64,000 nt of DNA from Barnesiella sp. WM24 (GTDB lineage: Bacteria > Bacteroidota > Bacteroidia > Bacteroidales > Muribaculaceae), in NCBI RefSeq assembly GCF_004570975.1, contig NZ_SPPC01000010.1, forward strand, positions 62,001 through 126,000, written 5' to 3'. Numbering within the stretch: position 1 is the first letter of the stretch; the number at the start of each line of letters is the position of its first letter. The notes under the pieces are model-generated. The model saw only the letters and a list, made by a program, of their open reading frames with translations. It made no database searches and was not told the DNA's origin. The translations under genes and the position numbers were made by a program. Below, piece by piece: positions 50,676 through 58,424 of the stretch.

Positions 50676-50896
50676 TGAAAAGGCTTATTGTAAATATCCT
50701 TATCTTGCCTGTGCGCTTCTACCAGCTTGCCATCTCCCCGATGCTACCCCCGTCGTGCCGCTATGTGCCGACATGCAGCCAGTACACTATCGAGGCTCTG
50801 CGCAAGCATGGACCCGTGAAAGGGCTGTGGCTTGCGGTGAGGCGTATATTGCGGTGTCATCCATGGGGTGGCAGCGGTTATGACCCTGTGCCATGA
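50675..50896 (+). CDS. yidD: YidD membrane protein insertion efficiency factor
   Basis: 73 residues. All hallmarks are present: [31 protein letters not shown] with the three cysteine-containing motif, then [18 protein letters not shown]. It is a small peripheral inner-membrane protein thought to aid YidC-mediated insertion. The start overlaps the rnpA stop, and the stop overlaps the tatD start (ATGA). An upstream ATG at 50630 in the same frame lies within rnpA and is not needed. Confidence 0.95.
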
Positions 50897-51471
50897 CAGT
50901 GACAGATGTCCACACCCACCATCATCACCGCCGTGATGCCGTGATTAATCTTGCTCCCGGCGAACTGCCTGAACCGGGATTTCTGTATTCATCGGGGGTG
51001 CATCCCTGGGACACCTTGCTGCCTGATGACGAGATTGAGCGGCGCCTTGAAGAGGTGAGGCGTCTGTCGCGTCTTCCGGAGGTGGTCGCAATCGGTGAGG
51101 CGGGCATCGACAGGCTGCGAGGCGCGTCGATGGAAAGGCAGACCGGAATCTTCCGCCGGCAGGCGGATATAAGTGAAGAGGCGCAAAAACCGATGATACT
51201 TCATGTCGTCAAGGCATTTCCTGAAATAATCAGGCTGAAGCGTGAACTGAAGCCGTCACAGCCTTGGATAGTCCACGGTTTCCGAGGAAAGCCGGAGCTT
51301 GCAGCCGAGTTGCTGCGCGCCGGATTCTACATATCGCTTGGTGAGAATTTCAATCAAGCCGCCGCGGCGGTTATCCCCCCTGACAGGCTCTTTGCCGAGA
51401 CCGACGAAAGCACCCTTACGATAGGCGAGATTGCGGCACGCCTGCCTCACATGCCTGCTGCAACGCTCTGA
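50893..51471 (+). CDS. TatD-family metal-dependent hydrolase, short form
   Basis: 192 residues, shorter than the usual 260. Metal ligands are seen in DVHTHHHH (His7, His9), [20 protein letters not shown] and ETDES. TatD proteins are DNases or related phosphoesterases. The short length fits the compact Bacteroidetes subgroup. The start overlaps the yidD stop by 4 nt. The last 56 bp overlap the convergent SDR gene, which ends at 51416. Confidence 0.88.
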
Positions 51472-52270
51472 CGGCATCCGTGGCAATGGGGTGCAACCGT
51501 TGTTTCTGATAGCCAGCCGGTATCGGGCTGTGTCCCGACAAGGTGAATATATGACCCGTCAGGCGGCTTTCCATCGCCGCGAGTGCAGGTGCCGCGCCCT
51601 GCCTGGGAGTGGAAATGACGGGGCGGAATAATCTGTCGCTCAGATAGTCGATTACCTTGTTGTCCATCGTGATAATGGCTGAGTCCACGATGCCCGGGTC
51701 GGAGCAGTTGACTCTTATGTGGCGGTGACGCAGCTCGGCTGACAGGTCAAGGGCGAAATGGGTGAGCATAAGCTTGCTGCGCCCGTAGGTCGTAAACCGG
51801 TGGTGGTGACTCACAGCGCGCTCGCGCCAGTCGTCACGCAGGCGGGCTATGCGGCGCGTCATCGAAGTAGTGAACACAATCGCCCCGTCATCCGCCATGC
51901 AAGGGAGCAGAAGCCGCGTGAGCAGCCCTGTGGCGAGAAAATTGGTCTGGGTCGCCGATTCATAGCCGTCGGCGGTGAGAATGACGTCGCCCGGCATCGT
52001 CCCGGCGTTGTTAAAGAGCCCGTCTATGCTTAGGCCGCTCGCCGCAATCGCCTTGGCAAACCGCCTCACGCTCTCCAGCGACTCCAGGTCGACCTCCATT
52101 GCAGTCAGTTCTGTCATCCCCGGCTGCAGCGATTCGATAAGTTTCCGGGCTTTCGCGATGTTGCGGCATGCGAGTATCACTCTTGCCGCGCCGCGTTCAG
52201 TCAGCCCCTTTACGATGGCTTTGCCTATGCCTCCCGTGGCACCGGTTACGATATAGGTCTTTCCGCTCAT
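51416..52270 (-). CDS. SDR-family oxidoreductase 2 of the steroid-type operon
   Basis: 284 residues from the ATG at 52270, which overlaps the previous stop (ATGA); the open frame reaches 52477 inside the upstream gene. Classical or retinol-dehydrogenase-like SDR: TGATGGIG (9-16), NNAG (87-90), active-site Ser136 and the YxxxK pair Tyr162/Lys166 in YGRSKLML. It would oxidise or reduce a secondary alcohol/ketone with NAD(P). As last gene of the operon with a 5-alpha-reductase, an Old Yellow Enzyme and another SDR, a hydroxysteroid dehydrogenase role is inferred. Its end overlaps the convergent tatD gene by 56 bp. Confidence 0.85.
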   Translation of the reverse strand: MSGKTYIVTGATGGIGKAIVKGLTERGAARVILACRNIAKARKLIESLQPGMTELTAMEVDLESLESVRRFAKAIAASGLSIDGLFNNAGTMPGDVILTADGYESATQTNFLATGLLTRLLLPCMADDGAIVFTTSMTRRIARLRDDWRERAVSHHHRFTTYGRSKLMLTHFALDLSAELRHRHIRVNCSDPGIVDSAIITMDNKVIDYLSDRLFRPVISTPRQGAAPALAAMESRLTGHIFTLSGHSPIPAGYQKQRLHPIATDAVRALQQACEAGVPQSRLS

Positions 52271-53061
52271 TTGTCGGTCTTTTTTTGACGGTCGAGCCCT
52301 ATGCGTTTTATCATCAGTCTGCCACGCTCGGGAAGCATCGCGACTGCTACGATTGCCATGCGGTTTAGTCCGCCGTTGATATACTGGGCTTTGCGCCTGA
52401 ACATCTTGCGCATGGCGCGGCGCACAAATGTGTGTGGCGTCACCAGCACCCCGATTCTCACGGCAAACCGCTTCCACTTCTCTGGCAGTCCGAAAAGTGA
52501 TGTCGATATGCCGCCGGGACAGGCGACGGTCACTGACACTCCGTAGTCTTTCATCTCTACTCGCATCGCGCGCGAGAATGTGCGTATGTAGGCTTTAGTC
52601 GCGCTGTACATCGCTATTCCCGGCATCGGCATCCAGCATGACATCGACGACATGTTGAGGATATAGCCGCCGTTTGACTCCTGTGCCATCATCATCGCTA
52701 TCTCCGTGGTAAGCATCGTCACCGCCCTTACATGCAGGTCGATATACACTTCGATGCGCCTTTTACCGAGCTCCTCCACTTTTTTGAAGTCAAATATCCC
52801 GGCATTGTTTATAAGCACTTCCGGCACAATCCCGTTGGCCTGCAACACGCCCCTGACACTCCCGGCGGCATCAGGCGCGGTAAGGTCAATACAGTGGGCT
52901 ATCGTGGCTACCCCGTAGCGTTCATGTATCTTTTCCGCCCATGCCACGAGCTCATTGCTCTGGTTGCTGACCATGAGCAGCGAGTAGCGGCGTTCGGCGA
53001 GCTGATGGGCAAATTCCAGACCTATCCCGGAAGACGCCCCGGTGACAACCGCCCATTTCAT
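52267..53061 (-). CDS. SDR-family oxidoreductase 1 of the steroid-type operon
   Basis: 264 residues from the ATG at 53061, overlapping the Old Yellow Enzyme stop by 4 nt; the open frame extends to 53136. Motifs: TGASSGIG (7-14), NNAG (85-88), Ser139 and YSATKAYIRTF with Tyr152/Lys156. A basic, partly hydrophobic C-terminal tail (about 215-264) resembles 17-beta-HSD12 or ketoacyl reductase-type SDRs that associate with membranes. A 3-beta (or 3-alpha) hydroxysteroid dehydrogenase is the most attractive assignment given the neighbours, but substrate and stereochemistry are inferred. Confidence 0.85.
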   Translation of the reverse strand: MKWAVVTGASSGIGLEFAHQLAERRYSLLMVSNQSNELVAWAEKIHERYGVATIAHCIDLTAPDAAGSVRGVLQANGIVPEVLINNAGIFDFKKVEELGKRRIEVYIDLHVRAVTMLTTEIAMMMAQESNGGYILNMSSMSCWMPMPGIAMYSATKAYIRTFSRAMRVEMKDYGVSVTVACPGGISTSLFGLPEKWKRFAVRIGVLVTPHTFVRRAMRKMFRRKAQYINGGLNRMAIVAVAMLPERGRLMIKRIGLDRQKKTDK

Positions 53062-54290
53062 GACTGTTGACGCGCTTTGATGTTGGCAATCTCGCGCTTC
53101 AGCCCGGGGGTAAGGTCGCTGACACACTTGTGGCATGCCATCTCGCGCGAATACATCCTTCCTATGCAGTAGTTCACGTGGTCACATCCCGAGCTTTCAA
53201 GCTCCTCTTCCCGCATGCGTCTTACGAAGTCGGGCATCGTCAGGAGCGAGCGCGCCATCTGCACAAATTCAAAGCCCTCGCCAAGCACCCGCTCTATCGA
53301 GCTGCGCGTAGAGCACCCGCCCACATATATCAGCGGCATCTTCAGCTCCTTGCGGAATATCTTGGCGTCGTCAAGGAAATAACACTCCTTGTAGGGGACC
53401 GTGGGCACCATCATCTTGCCAAACATCCTGACACCATATTTCAGCCACCAGCAGTCCATATAATGGGTCATCGCGCCTATAGGCATCTCGCCGCGCATGA
53501 CATACATCGGTGCCTTGCTGACAAATCCGCCTGACAACACGAGCGCATGGGCGCCGAGTTGCTCCAGCTCGCGCGCGATGAGCAGTCCCTCGTCGATTTC
53601 TATGCCTCCCTTGAAGCCGTCGCGCATGTTGGTCTTGACGATGACGCCCATGTCGCTTCCGGCGGCTTTCATCACCTCCTCCATACACAGGCGCATGAAG
53701 CGCATCCTGTTGTCGAGCGAGCCGCCCCAGCGGTCGCGGCGGCGGTTGGTGTAAGGCGACAGAAACTGGCTTATCAGATAGCCGTGGCCGGCGTGAATCT
53801 CCACGCAGTCCATCCCGGCGTCGCGCGACAGCCTGACAGCGTCGCCAAATGACCGCGCCATAGCCGTGATTTCATCGTCGCGCATCTTTCTGACCGGTGT
53901 CGGTGAGTAGATATTGAATCGGCCCGAAGCCGAGATCGGGGTCTCGCCGGCTGTCGACTTGTGTGACATGTTGCCGCAGTGTCCGAGCTGTATCGACGCT
54001 TTGGCGCCTGTGGCGTGGATGGCGTCGGTAATGTTGCGCAGTCCCGCGATGATTTCAGGTCTCATCCAGAGCTGACGCGGAAATGAAAGCCCGTTGCGGG
54101 TCACGGAGGCATAGGCGAGAGTCGTCATGCCCACACCGCCTTCAGCCACCGAAAGATGATAGTCTTTCAGCATCTGCGACGGGCTGTTGCCGGGACACAT
54201 CCCCTCAAATGCCGCCGAGCGTATCGTGCGGTTGCGCAGGGTCACGGGTCCTATCTGCGCGGGGGTGAATAATATCGATTGTTCGTGCAT
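53058..54290 (-). CDS. NADH:flavin oxidoreductase, Old Yellow Enzyme family
   Basis: 410 residues: a single FMN-binding (beta/alpha)8 barrel without the C-terminal NAD-binding half found in BaiCD/BaiH (about 660 residues). It has RNRTIRSAAFEGMCPG at the N-terminus, the substrate-binding signature EIHAGHGYLISQFLSPYTNRR and DRWGGSLDNRMRF, and a C-terminal cysteine set (CDHVNYC ... ACHKC) that may bind an iron-sulfur cluster. The family reduces activated C=C bonds, including delta-4-3-oxo steroids. In this operon a 5-beta-reductase-type role is a fair inference. It lies 4 bp after the 5-alpha-reductase-family gene. Confidence 0.87.
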   Translation of the reverse strand: MHEQSILFTPAQIGPVTLRNRTIRSAAFEGMCPGNSPSQMLKDYHLSVAEGGVGMTTLAYASVTRNGLSFPRQLWMRPEIIAGLRNITDAIHATGAKASIQLGHCGNMSHKSTAGETPISASGRFNIYSPTPVRKMRDDEITAMARSFGDAVRLSRDAGMDCVEIHAGHGYLISQFLSPYTNRRRDRWGGSLDNRMRFMRLCMEEVMKAAGSDMGVIVKTNMRDGFKGGIEIDEGLLIARELEQLGAHALVLSGGFVSKAPMYVMRGEMPIGAMTHYMDCWWLKYGVRMFGKMMVPTVPYKECYFLDDAKIFRKELKMPLIYVGGCSTRSSIERVLGEGFEFVQMARSLLTMPDFVRRMREEELESSGCDHVNYCIGRMYSREMACHKCVSDLTPGLKREIANIKARQQS

Positions 54291-54294
54291 GGTG

Positions 54295-55068
54295 TCAGTA
54301 TATAAAGGGTAAGATACTTTTTAGATTCAGGGTGCTGAACTCGTCGCCAAACTCCAGTCGGTAGCGGCTGTTGATTTTCCGGGCGCGCGGGGCGAGATTG
54401 GCAAAGGTCCAGAGGGCAAACACGGCGCCCGCCCACGACCAGGTGAGTATCGCGAAGCCGGTCCACTCGACCACCTCGCCGAAATAGTTGGCCGACGATA
54501 CGTAGCGGAACATTCCTCCGCGCGGTATATAGTGGCGCGTGTCGCCGGGACGCCGCAGATTGCGGATTATATGGTCGCTGTGCAGGTTGATTGCCATGCC
54601 GGCAAAAAATATCGCTGTGCCCGCGATAAACGGTGCCGACTGCAGCCAGTCGGCGGGATAGCGTCCCGCAGGCGAGATGTAGAATATCCAGCCGCCCTGC
54701 ATCACTGCGTTGATGAGGTTAAACGTGACGCCCATGACAATGATCGACAGCGGCATGCGGCTGTTGCCTTTGATAAGCAGCGGGAAGATAAACGAGCGCT
54801 GGAAATAGTGGAGCATAAACAGCAGCGCCATCACGACAGGGGCTGTCTCGAGGCGGCGCGGGGAGCAGAGCCAGAGGGCGAGCATCGCGAAAAACACCGG
54901 CGACTCCATCAATACCCATCCGAGACGGTTGTTGACCGAGGCGCCCCAGCGACGTGAATACATGATGCCGTAGCCAGCCTCTACAAAGTGTAACGCTACA
55001 AACACCACCACCGCTGTCACCGCCATTCCGGCAAGCAGCCAGTCAAACCATACATCCGGATTTTCCAT
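54295..55068 (-). CDS. 3-oxo-5-alpha-steroid 4-dehydrogenase (SRD5A) family membrane protein
   Basis: 257 residues from the ATG at 55068; the TTG at 55095 in the same frame overlaps the promoter's -7 box and is rejected. Six to seven TM segments. The C-terminal third carries the family signature strikingly well: HYIPRGGMFRYVSSANYFGE, VVEWTGFAILTWSWAGAVFALWTFANLAPRAR and the RYRLEFGDEF tail, corresponding to the NADPH-binding ANYFGE..EW region of vertebrate steroid 5-alpha-reductases. It would reduce the delta-4 double bond of a 3-oxo-steroid or bile acid to the 5-alpha (allo) form. First gene of the operon. Confidence 0.88.
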   Translation of the reverse strand: MENPDVWFDWLLAGMAVTAVVVFVALHFVEAGYGIMYSRRWGASVNNRLGWVLMESPVFFAMLALWLCSPRRLETAPVVMALLFMLHYFQRSFIFPLLIKGNSRMPLSIIVMGVTFNLINAVMQGGWIFYISPAGRYPADWLQSAPFIAGTAIFFAGMAINLHSDHIIRNLRRPGDTRHYIPRGGMFRYVSSANYFGEVVEWTGFAILTWSWAGAVFALWTFANLAPRARKINSRYRLEFGDEFSTLNLKSILPFIY

Positions 55069-55092
55069 TGCGCACAAAAAAGTGTTATCGCT

Positions 55093-55123
55093 CAAATGTA
55101 ATTAAAATACTTGAAACGACAAA
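55093..55123 (-). promoter_or_regulatory. Promoter of the four-gene steroid-type operon
   Basis: On the minus strand, TTTG (55123-55120), a 19-bp spacer, TACATTTG (55100-55093): a perfect consensus. Predicted +1 near 55089; leader about 21 nt. A dyad CGACA-N9-TGTCG (55117-55135) overlaps the -33 box. Confidence 0.8.
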
Positions 55124-55160: not shown

Positions 55161-56435
55161 TCAGTCGTAGATGTAGTCAAATGTTCCGCCGTCGTTCATC
55201 GGGGCTATGGTAGCTGTGAAATAGGGATTGGTTGCGGCTTCCTCCGGAGTGCCGGCGCCCGCGCGGTCGATTATCGCCGTGACGTCGTAAAAATGATTCC
55301 TGTCGGCGCGATACAGCGGCAGAATCTCGTTGTACAGCACATGTTCAGAGAAGCATTGACGGTCATTGTACTTATACAGGCGGTAGTTGACCGGCACTTT
55401 GTAGAAATAGCTTTTCCCGTTGAACGGTGCCTGGACTATCGCATAGACCTGTCGCTCCGCCACTATGGGCTCGCCCGCCGAATAGCCTCTTACGATAACC
55501 CTGTCGGTGCGCTCTGTCCCGTCGGGGTCGGTGTGTTGCGCGGCAGAGTGCGAGCTGTTTGTACAGCCTTTGGTGACATAATTGTCTTTATGGTTGTACC
55601 AGTCGGTAGGATAGGTGTAATACACGTGTCCGCCATCTTTCACCATCTCTGCGGGATGAGGTTCGGTGATGTCGGTAAGGCTTTCCCACTCGCTATTGTC
55701 GATAAATTCCGCAGGCACGCTGTTGACAGCCGTCAGGCGGTTGGAGGCGTTCCAGCTGTAGATGTCATAGCGGTGAGACAGTCTTGCCTTTCCGGCACAG
55801 TGGAGCATCATACTTGTAAACGCCCCGGCGTCCATCGCTGCGTTGTCTTTGTCGCGGAGATTGATTCTTACCTTGGCGGCGACTCTTTTCAGCGGTATGT
55901 TGATATTATAGGGCGTGGTCTTCATGCTCTCGGTAAGCTCCACTTCCCCGGTCATCACAAAAGCTTTGCGGCGGGTGAGGTCGGCGGTCGCGGTGATGTC
56001 GGCGTCGAGCACCTCGTTTAGCGCGGGGTTGCTCCCTTCCTCTACGGAGAATGTGCCGGGATAGTTTGCCACAAGATATATCCTGTCGGAATCCTTGATG
56101 CGCTCATGGCTCAGCTCCACGTCGTCAGTGACAAATGCGTGTCTTGTGTGGCAGTCGGTGGAATTGGGCGCGTCATCAGGATATTCCTTGCTCCAGTGGA
56201 GAGTCACCTTGTCATCCTTCACGAGAAACAGGTCAAGACTGTAGACCGAGTTTTCATTAAAGTCATCCCAGCCGTCGTCGGTGGTTATTCCAGAGGCTCG
56301 TGAGCCGGAATAGCCGGTGGTGGTGTAGCTGATTTCTACTGCCGCTGTCTCGTCGGCGGGTACATCGACACTGCTGTCACTGCATCCTGCAAGGAGTGAC
56401 GATAAGAGTATTGCCGTTGTTATGTAGCGTTTCAT
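55161..56435 (-). CDS. Fimbrillin family lipoprotein (FimA/Mfa1-like), last gene of the fimbrial locus
   Basis: 424 residues. The lipoprotein signal ends LLAGC (Cys18). The arrangement is that of Bacteroidales type V fimbrillins: a first beta-sandwich (about 30-185) with LDLFLVKDD, SDRIYLVANYPG and NINIPLKRVAAKVRINL, then a second domain (about 190-424) with Y/D-rich strands and RNHFYDVTAII near the end. Processing by a gingipain-like Arg protease at an N-terminal Arg, as in P. gingivalis, is possible (GSRASG near residue 45). It could be a stalk or accessory subunit. It follows the 655-residue subunit gene after 21 bp. Confidence 0.75.
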   Translation of the reverse strand: MKRYITTAILLSSLLAGCSDSSVDVPADETAAVEISYTTTGYSGSRASGITTDDGWDDFNENSVYSLDLFLVKDDKVTLHWSKEYPDDAPNSTDCHTRHAFVTDDVELSHERIKDSDRIYLVANYPGTFSVEEGSNPALNEVLDADITATADLTRRKAFVMTGEVELTESMKTTPYNINIPLKRVAAKVRINLRDKDNAAMDAGAFTSMMLHCAGKARLSHRYDIYSWNASNRLTAVNSVPAEFIDNSEWESLTDITEPHPAEMVKDGGHVYYTYPTDWYNHKDNYVTKGCTNSSHSAAQHTDPDGTERTDRVIVRGYSAGEPIVAERQVYAIVQAPFNGKSYFYKVPVNYRLYKYNDRQCFSEHVLYNEILPLYRADRNHFYDVTAIIDRAGAGTPEEAATNPYFTATIAPMNDGGTFDYIYD

Positions 56436-56456: not shown

Positions 56457-58424
56457 TTACGGTTGAGTGTAGCCCATCGGTGTGTCCCACCATCCAAAGC
56501 GGTTGTCGCCGATGACTCCTTCCATCAGCTCCTTCGGTCCCGCTTTGTAGTCGCCCACAAGCACCTGGCGTATCTGTATCGCGGTTTTGGTGCCGGGATA
56601 GGTGAGGTCGCCGAAATATTTCGCGCCGTCGGCGGCTGTGTAGGGTGGATTGATTACGAGATTCTCGGTAAACTGCTCGCCGTCAAGCGACACCTTTATT
56701 GCAAGATAGACTGTCGGCACTTCTCCTGCGTCCCTGTAGCTTGTCGCGAGAGGGCTCAGCACGTCATCGTCCGACCCGTCAAGGATGATGGGCAGAGGGA
56801 TGTCGTAGCGGTCCGACCCTTCCGATTTCGCCACAAACAGTTTTTCAATAGCCGCATAGGTTATGTCACCCGTATTCTCGTCGACTTGTGCCGGATATTC
56901 AAGTTTACCCACATATGAGTCTTTTATCCAGCAGTTTCTGTTGACATCGATGGCTATATTGTAAGGCTCGGGGCGCGCGATGCCGGTTCTTACAGCCTGT
57001 TGGTTGTTTTCGTTGTTGTTGCCGTCGGAAAAGCGGAAATACTTGTAATCATGCTCTATGGTACATTCCTTGTCGTCATAAAGAAATGCTTTCCACACAG
57101 CGCCCTCCGGCTTGGAGATTGTAAACGTGAAGTTGAGCTGCGACGAGCTGTTTTCAAGAACCTTGATATCCACTTTTTTCAGCGCTCCGTCAACAAGCTG
57201 ATTTATACTTTTTGACGCAATGCGCGGGTGAGTGATGAAGCAGTATCTTGAGTCGGGTTTACTATACCGCAGATAATGTTCATCGTTTTGGTTGATATCC
57301 CAGCCGAGGGTGGAGGGGATGTAGTCCCAGCAGTCGACGTCGTAGGTGAGTGTGCCGAAGTGGATGCCGTCGATGGTGAAGAGGTAGTAGTGGTTGCGCA
57401 CAATGTCGGTAGCCAGGCGGGTGGCGTCGCCGGTCGTGCCGCCCCCGTTGACATTGGCGTCGTTGAAGTGGATTGCGGCGGGATAGGTGAGGGTCTGACC
57501 GCTCGCCTCATGCTTTACGGTGACGTCGATTGTAGCCTCTCCGCCGGCTGCCTCGGAAGAGTCATATTCGGGCAGATAAAACACTATCGAGCCCTCTTTC
57601 TCGCCGGTGTAGATGCCCGGGGCGAAGTCATGACCGCCTACGGGGGTCTTCACCGGGTTAAACGAGTGTCCGTAGCTCAGAGTGCCGTCGAGAGTGGCGG
57701 TAGCGGTCTCCCATCCCGCGGGGAAGGGGTCTATGTAAGAGTTGGCGGCGCTCATGCGGGCGCTTACGAGCCTGTAGCCCTCCATCTTTGCAGGGTCAAG
57801 CTTGATTTCCACCTTGGCTAAGGCGCGGAGCAGGTCGATGGAGCCTATCTCCTCGGGTGAGTCTTTTTTGCCGGTAAATGTAAAGTCGTGGGTAGTCATG
57901 CCCCACATGGGGATGCGCACTCCGTTGCGCGGAGAGCCGTTGGGGCTGTACCACATCACGTCGGCTATCGTCGACTTCAGCCCGTCGAGGGTGGTGGCGC
58001 TCATCAGTGCGGGCCCGCAGTTGGCGAGCAGCATCACGCGGTAGCTGCCCGGCTCCCAACCCTCTTCGCCTAAGTCGATATTGCCGATAAAGGTGTAGCC
58101 ATCGGCGTCGGCGTCATACATGTATTGGCGCAGGTCGACATGGGCGAGACTGCCGTCGTTGCCTATCAGCATCACGTGCAGACGGTCGACCTCGGAGTCA
58201 AACCGCGTGCCTATCTCCTCCTTGTGGTTGTTATTCCACACGCCGCCGCCATCGGCTCGCGAGCCGTAGCCGTCGAGCTTCAGCGTGAACCTTACCGGCA
58301 CGCTGCCTTGCAGACGCTCCGTGTCGCCGCATCCCGCCGGGCTGTCATCGTAGACACAGCCCCCCGACATAAACGCCAGCACCACGGCGCATAAAACTGT
58401 TATATGCCTGATTATATCTCTCAT
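56457..58424 (-). CDS. FimB/Mfa2-like fimbrial subunit with long C-terminal extension
   Basis: 655 residues. The lipoprotein signal ends SGGC (Cys23). The N-terminal 350 residues match Mfa2/FimB-like domains: EVDRLHVMLIGNDGSLAHVDLRQYM, LGEEGWEPGSYRVMLLANCG and IDLLRALAKVEIKLDP. The C-terminal 300 residues are extra and carry RNHYYLFTIDGIHFG and several Cys-free beta stretches. Base composition changes within the gene: 57421-57480 has 41 G/C of 60, 57121-57180 only 25 of 60. The start overlaps the stop of the preceding gene (ATGA). An anchor or tip role is possible. Confidence 0.7.
   Translation of the reverse strand: MRDIIRHITVLCAVVLAFMSGGCVYDDSPAGCGDTERLQGSVPVRFTLKLDGYGSRADGGGVWNNNHKEEIGTRFDSEVDRLHVMLIGNDGSLAHVDLRQYMYDADADGYTFIGNIDLGEEGWEPGSYRVMLLANCGPALMSATTLDGLKSTIADVMWYSPNGSPRNGVRIPMWGMTTHDFTFTGKKDSPEEIGSIDLLRALAKVEIKLDPAKMEGYRLVSARMSAANSYIDPFPAGWETATATLDGTLSYGHSFNPVKTPVGGHDFAPGIYTGEKEGSIVFYLPEYDSSEAAGGEATIDVTVKHEASGQTLTYPAAIHFNDANVNGGGTTGDATRLATDIVRNHYYLFTIDGIHFGTLTYDVDCWDYIPSTLGWDINQNDEHYLRYSKPDSRYCFITHPRIASKSINQLVDGALKKVDIKVLENSSSQLNFTFTISKPEGAVWKAFLYDDKECTIEHDYKYFRFSDGNNNENNQQAVRTGIARPEPYNIAIDVNRNCWIKDSYVGKLEYPAQVDENTGDITYAAIEKLFVAKSEGSDRYDIPLPIILDGSDDDVLSPLATSYRDAGEVPTVYLAIKVSLDGEQFTENLVINPPYTAADGAKYFGDLTYPGTKTAIQIRQVLVGDYKAGPKELMEGVIGDNRFGWWDTPMGYTQP

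Follow-up and report, generated by a model that had tools for sequence, protein, structure and literature searches.

The 64-kb window analyzed here (G000 C1:62001-126000 of Barnesiella sp. WM24, a Muribaculaceae genome of 3.49 Mb in 40 contigs) contained an operon of four intact minus-strand genes that were predicted to encode an SRD5A-type steroid 5-alpha-reductase (5AR), an Old Yellow Enzyme-type (OYE) flavin mononucleotide (FMN) oxidoreductase, and two short-chain dehydrogenases/reductases (SDR1 and SDR2). These four enzymes most likely alter the shape of the steroid skeleton in bile acids and similar molecules. With a probability of roughly two-thirds, judged from homology and gene order, the operon represents the Muribaculaceae version of the Bacteroidota cluster for 5-alpha-reductase, 5-beta-reductase (5BR), and 3-hydroxysteroid dehydrogenase (3-HSDH), and it would reset ring A and the A/B ring fusion of its steroid substrates. 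The initial annotation had described a four-gene operon with a 4-bp gap and 4-nt overlaps, and this was confirmed: all open reading frames were intact, 5AR and OYE were separated by 4 bp, and OYE/SDR1 and SDR1/SDR2 each shared 4 nt.

The 5AR gene (54295..55068, minus strand) encodes a predicted membrane 3-oxo-Delta4-steroid 5-alpha-reductase of 257 aa when read from its ATG, although translation might instead begin at a TTG farther upstream (55095). The protein scored 140 bits against Pfam Steroid_dh and 24 bits against DUF1295. A ten-row 5AR profile matched PbSRD5A (222 bits), human SRD5A2 (167 bits), and the enoyl-CoA reductase art-1 (51 bits) in the PDB, with zero other matches at E up to 1, and a search of NCBIfam assigned no family to it. 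By homology, 5AR is of the SRD5A1/2 type, as the initial annotation had proposed from an ANYFGE..EW signature (present as SANYFGEVVEW). The outcome that it had named as refuting this assignment, a DUF1295 lipid enzyme, was looked for and not seen in the two Pfam scores, and an enoyl-CoA reductase identity was rejected on the low score of art-1 relative to the two steroid reductases. Steroid_dh was found once in the genome, in the operon, and no second SRD5A match was detected there.

The catalytic residues of SRD5A enzymes have been named as a QEY signature (Q56, E57, and Y91), and the human SRD5A2 variants Q56A/L, E57L, and Y91F were reported to lose activity (Han et al., PMC7815742). E57 and Y91 were proposed to polarize the C3 ketone (Xiao et al., PMC7591894). 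The window 5AR retained both of the latter as E55 and Y88 and carried M54 at the Q56 position; M54, E55, and Y88 were invariant in 83 of 83 alignment rows. Because Q56 of the signature is absent, the protein was filed with the Bacteroidota 5AR rather than with SRD5A1/2 themselves. It also kept seven of the eight NADPH residues listed by Han et al. (PMC7815742; N160, D164, R171, N193, E197, R227, H231, and Y235), the exception being H231, which is replaced by I232. Fourteen more distant 5AR rows (13 Bacteroidales and one Nocardia), none of which had an OYE match above 250 bits within the fetched stretch, all carried M at the Q56 position (14/14). MEY was therefore rejected as a marker of the OYE-linked clade and is a broader bacterial variant. 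The H231 column was non-His in 124 of 124 close rows, which include some genomes more than once, and His in 10 of the 14 distant rows; as far as these alignments go, the loss of H231 accompanies the close 5AR clade. The Nocardia row (L101, N. farcinica NZ_LN868939.1) is an actinobacterial SRD5A-type relative with 36% identity that kept MEY and had different letters at the N160, D164, and N193 columns.

The OYE gene (53058..54290, minus strand) encodes an OYE-type FMN oxidoreductase of 410 aa, a candidate 5-beta-reductase or 3-oxo-Delta4 dehydrogenase. It scored 182 bits against Pfam Oxidored_FMN, a family that was found once in the genome, in the operon, with no second OYE match, and H166, H169, and Y171 (H-x2-H-x-Y) were present in 69 of 69 rows. 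The enzyme shared its barrel with 3kru, in which the H-x2-H-x-Y region corresponds, and it terminated where FadH runs on into the flavin adenine dinucleotide (FAD)/NAD part, and approximately 31 of its residues (266-296) had no FadH counterpart. The earlier description of a single-domain OYE had overlooked a Cys-rich C-terminal tail. This tail (53124..53186, minus strand; residues 369-389) contained C369, H371, C375, C386, and C389 and is a possible degenerate 4Fe-4S site. C369, H371, and C375 were found in 69 of 69 rows, C386 in 68 with one gap, and a fourth Cys lay ahead of C369 or beyond C386 in 66. From this pattern, OYE may be a truncated iron-sulfur enzyme.

The cluster ligands of FadH are, we assume, C335, C338, C342, and C354 (gene numbering). 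In a MAFFT alignment, C369 and C375 matched C338 and C342, and C386 fell on C361 rather than C354, so that the register is unsure. The hhalign alignment of OYE with FadH ended at residue 361, short of the Cys tail, and a C-terminal OYE profile produced weak PDB matches (best E 0.006) with no multi-domain Fe-S enzyme among the best 60 of 73. A structure model of OYE (pLDDT 81, pTM 0.85) aligned over both barrel and tail with a relative found by structure matching (model residues 1-3 through 409-410). Both tails were Cys-rich, but the Cys spacing differed, and pLDDT in the OYE tail was below 50 at residues 372-390.

SDR1 (52267..53061, minus strand) is a classical short-chain dehydrogenase of 264 aa, and SDR2 (51416..52270, minus strand) is a retinol-dehydrogenase/protochlorophyllide-reductase-like enzyme of 284 aa; both are candidate hydroxysteroid dehydrogenases. 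They scored 134 and 103 bits, respectively, against Pfam adh_short. The intact YxxxK sites previously claimed for both were borne out: SDR1 contained S139, Y152, and K156, of which the latter two were found in 63 of 63 SDR1 rows, and SDR2 contained S136, Y162, and K166, with Y162 and K166 in 38 of 38 rows. The nearest solved relatives of SDR2 were 3rd5 and the light-dependent protochlorophyllide reductases, and it also resembled PRK06197-kind SDRs. SDR2 carried C35-R36 (R in 36 of 38 rows), which presumably favors NADP(H). In a tree of 101 SDR rows, pre-labeled by the better-scoring query and built by a short search with SH-aLRT support, SDR1 (63 rows) and SDR2 (38 rows) fell on opposite sides of a fully supported branch.

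The gene neighborhood was widely conserved. A scan of GTDB genomes yielded at least 592 5AR relatives, of which the best 80 loci were kept, and architecture was counted in the 68 that had at least 3600 nt downstream of 5AR (12 shorter loci were excluded). OYE, SDR1, and SDR2 accompanied 5AR in 32 loci, OYE and SDR1 in 25, and OYE and SDR2 in 2, and the rest contained OYE alone (2), SDR2 without OYE (1), or 5AR only (6). The 32 four-gene loci include two with an SDR1-type gene upstream of 5AR (L048 and L083), one with the SDR2 match in two pieces (L030), and two in which SDR2 was not adjacent (L026 and L066). OYE was located on the same strand and at most 1.5 kb downstream of 5AR in 61 of the 68 loci; since the order 5AR then OYE is conserved across Bacteroidales, it is not due to chance. 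An even sample of 198 Bacteroidales genomes, including the source genome of the window and one congener, contained 26 close 5AR places, of which 20 were fetched with flanks. All four genes were present in six of them (L104-L107, L113, and L116), OYE with SDR1 in five, OYE with SDR2 in four, OYE without an SDR in two, and 5AR only in three, the last two groups each including one locus on a short contig. Sanguibacteroides belongs to a GTDB family that we take to contain Odoribacter as well, and 5AR was found in 7 of 24 genomes of this family, five with all four genes and two with OYE and SDR2. A Phocaeicola massiliensis record showed the order 5AR-OYE-SDR2. According to these counts, two SDRs are a common state and each can occur alone. 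The initial annotation had treated the second SDR as an addition in this operon, and this view was not upheld, because four-gene loci are common (32/68, 6/20, and 5/7 in the three sets) and the two SDRs form separate clades.

Some close relatives departed from this arrangement. Seven loci from metagenome-assembled genomes (MAGs; L031, L034, L039, L047, L021, L022, and L028) contained a close 5AR (70-74% identity) with no adjoining OYE or SDR match, one of which (L031) had only 749 nt downstream of 5AR. In L031, L034, L039, and L047, the gene after 5AR encoded, as judged by eye, a secreted-looking thioredoxin-like protein of 158-167 aa. In two genomes, G025 (L014, L016/L141, L142) and G143 (L118, L119), a close 5AR was present twice, and neither copy was adjoined by an OYE match.

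A single promoter precedes the operon. The consensus promoter that had been reported was recovered as an exact Bacteroidetes-type TTTG-N19-TACATTTG (55093..55123, minus strand), the end of which is 24 nt upstream of the 5AR ATG, and its upstream box is overlapped by an imperfect palindrome, GACACAAAAATTTTGTC. The two-box pattern (spacer 17-21) occurred seven times in total on the two strands of the window. Among relatives, TAnnTTTG was found within 130 nt upstream of 5AR in 41 of 81 loci vs. 2 of 81 in intragenic stretches of equal length, which are coding sequence and differ in composition, and the strict two-box pattern was found in 10 of 81.

From the gene set, the homologies, the core catalytic residues, and the neighborhood, all observed directly, we infer the substrate, the direction of the reactions, the roles of the two SDRs, and the stereochemistry as follows. 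All four enzymes would be made from a single transcript. One SDR would oxidize the 3-hydroxyl group of the steroid to a 3-oxo group, and OYE would interconvert 3-oxo-5-beta and 3-oxo-Delta4 steroids. 5AR would then transfer the NADPH hydride to the alpha face of C5, with E55 and Y88 polarizing the C3 ketone, to generate a flat 3-oxo-5-alpha steroid, of which the other SDR would reduce C3, probably to the 3-beta-hydroxyl. The net result would be the conversion of kinked 5-beta bile acids into flat 5-alpha (iso/allo) bile acids, and 3-oxo-Delta4 hormones would be reduced as well.

Bile acids as the substrate are in line with the presence of genes of the bile salt hydrolase (BSH) family. The source genome contained one choloylglycine-hydrolase-family gene (126 bits) outside the operon. 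In the 198 Bacteroidales genomes, a close 5AR (E up to 1e-100) was found in 24, and a strong BSH-family gene (E up to 1e-30) occurred in 15 of these 24 vs. 14 of the other 174, with cut-offs set after seeing the lists, kinship uncorrected, and the source genome included. Several findings weigh against the proposed role. Nine of the 24 genomes with a close 5AR had no strong BSH-family gene, and the BSH family also contains other amidases. The reductase has M-E-Y instead of Q-E-Y, a position at which Q56A/L abolishes the activity of human SRD5A2, and has lost the NADPH residue H231 as well. In the 5-beta-reductases described by Arp et al., N166/S171 marks the steroid-hormone type and Y-or-S/E the bile-acid (BaiCD) type. 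The OYE residues at these positions, mapped via the catalytic Tyr of FadH, were G170/Q175 in 69 of 69 rows and fit neither pattern.

The same chemistry might instead serve mainly non-bile 3-oxo-Delta4 sterols, such as host hormones and plant or diet sterols, with bile acids as incidental substrates, which we regard as rather unlikely. Six of the 80 loci came from MAGs titled reticulum, omasum, abomasum, or RUG (forestomach-labeled). We take RUG to stand for rumen. Three of these loci held all four genes (L069, L094, and L083, the last with its SDR1-type gene upstream of 5AR), L060 and L095 had no SDR2 match, and L090 was a short locus. A strong BSH-family match was found in none of the six forestomach-labeled genomes vs. 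4 of 12 gut- or feces-labeled ones (one of them assigned by species name only), which also counts against a strict role in bile-acid conversion. These numbers are too small to decide the matter, the MAGs may be incomplete or mislabeled, and the comparison becomes 3 of 6 vs. 7 of 12 once matches that are weak but above the Pfam cut-off are counted, those of the three forestomach-labeled genomes being partial. PbSRD5A was reported to prefer progesterone (PMC7815742), and a cohort study linked gut 5AR genes to circulating dihydrotestosterone/testosterone in women (PMC12589954). On the other hand, the reported genetics concern bile acids (PMC10382948), and the source genome carries its own BSH-family gene.

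OYE-type enzymes usually operate as reductases, and with the 5AR and OYE genes behind one promoter, the two enzymes could form competing branches, OYE converting Delta4 steroids to 5-beta products only and 5AR converting them to 5-alpha products only, so that the operon would clear 3-oxo-Delta4 steroids without flattening 5-beta ones. This arrangement appears doubtful, since Bacteroidota strains were reported to convert the 5-beta compounds 3-oxolithocholic acid (3-oxoLCA) and isoLCA to isoalloLCA, which requires a dehydrogenation step. The operon could also be a self-contained A/B-ring flattener that turns 3-alpha-hydroxy-5-beta into 3-beta-hydroxy-5-alpha steroids within one organism, the first reaction falling to one SDR and the last to the other. 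A cut-down Fe-S OYE would form the Delta4 bond and exchange electrons with a ferredoxin instead of NAD(P)H, its fourth cluster ligand shifting along the tail between species. If this enzyme set also acted on non-bile sterols, its persistence in forestomach Bacteroidales would follow. Such an elaborate scheme is improbable. A lipid-reduction operon, in which an enoyl or polyprenyl reductase works with accessory SDRs and has no steroid role, would suit the likeness of SDR2 to PRK06197- and protochlorophyllide-reductase-kind SDRs and the distant relationship of 5AR to an enoyl-CoA reductase. It is very improbable given the art-1 score (51 vs. 222 and 167 bits) and the retention of E57 and Y91.

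The operon is flanked by genes of other kinds. The 3' end of SDR2 overlapped a convergent TatD-family gene (50893-51471, plus strand) by 56 bp (51416-51471). Directly upstream of the operon were two large minus-strand lipoprotein-like genes (55161-56435 and 56457-58424), neither of which had a Pfam match at E up to 0.001. Judged by eye, both of them and the next gene, of 881 aa, resemble fimbrial (Mfa/FimB-type) surface proteins.

Muribaculaceae are abundant in mice, and the operon therefore assigns the proposed pathway to bacteria that are common in the mouse gut, a setting in which isoallo products could be measured and the genes removed. IsoalloLCA reportedly influences regulatory T cells and inhibits Gram-positive pathogens (PMC11271093, PMC10382948), and the androgen ratio in women was reported to track gut 5-alpha-reductase genes (PMC12589954). 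The noteworthy features are the MEY motif, the Cys tail of OYE, and the occurrence in forestomach-labeled MAGs. The first two are points at which the enzyme mechanism can be probed, and the forestomach loci raise the question of whether the true substrate is a bile acid.

The primary papers on the Bacteroidota 5AR/5BR/3-beta-HSDH cluster are reportedly those of Sato and of Li, both from 2021, known here through reviews. According to one account (PMC10382948), Parabacteroides merdae, Odoribacter laneus, and Bacteroides dorei convert 3-oxo-Delta4-LCA to isoalloLCA, disruption of the P. merdae 5AR blocks the formation of alloLCA derivatives, and this gene shares its cluster with genes for a predicted 3-beta-HSDH and for an NADH:flavin oxidoreductase that was hypothesized to be the 5BR. 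Gene clusters of Bacteroidetes holding all three enzymes are mentioned in PMC12697870, Bacteroides is named as a carrier of all three in PMC11271093, and excerpts of PMC9645264, PMC10672800, PMC12789469, and PMC12292970 name one or another of the activities with no further genetics. Among chicken Bacteroidetes isolates, 5AR was reported as annotated in all except two Odoribacter and one P. distasonis (PMC6069880).

The gene set of the window agreed with this published cluster (PMC10382948), as had been proposed earlier: an SRD5A-type 5AR was found beside an adjoining NADH:flavin oxidoreductase and an adjoining intact SDR (a candidate 3-beta-HSDH), in a gut member of the Bacteroidales. The same architecture occurred in kin of strains with demonstrated activity, namely the Sanguibacteroides family and Phocaeicola massiliensis (5AR-OYE-SDR2). 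The window differed in having two SDRs, a difference that is itself common (32/68 and 6/20 loci). 5AR matched PbSRD5A (PDB 7c83) and human SRD5A2 (7bw1) over nearly the full length and had E57/Y91 and seven of eight NADPH residues in common with them, and it differed from both by Q56 to M and H231 to I. The Firmicutes 5-beta-reductase ci2350/BaiCD and 5-alpha-reductases BaiP/BaiJ have the same proposed reactions as the operon. However, OYE was unlike BaiCD at the active-site positions and scored 168.6 bits against the BaiCD model (NCBIfam NF041087), far below the curated cut-off of 825, and BaiP/BaiJ were reported to be dissimilar to the membrane 5AR of Bacteroidetes. By architecture and homology, the operon is probably a member of the Bacteroidota 5AR/5BR/3-beta-HSDH cluster type, and its gene set is a common form of an already described gut Bacteroidota system rather than a new one.

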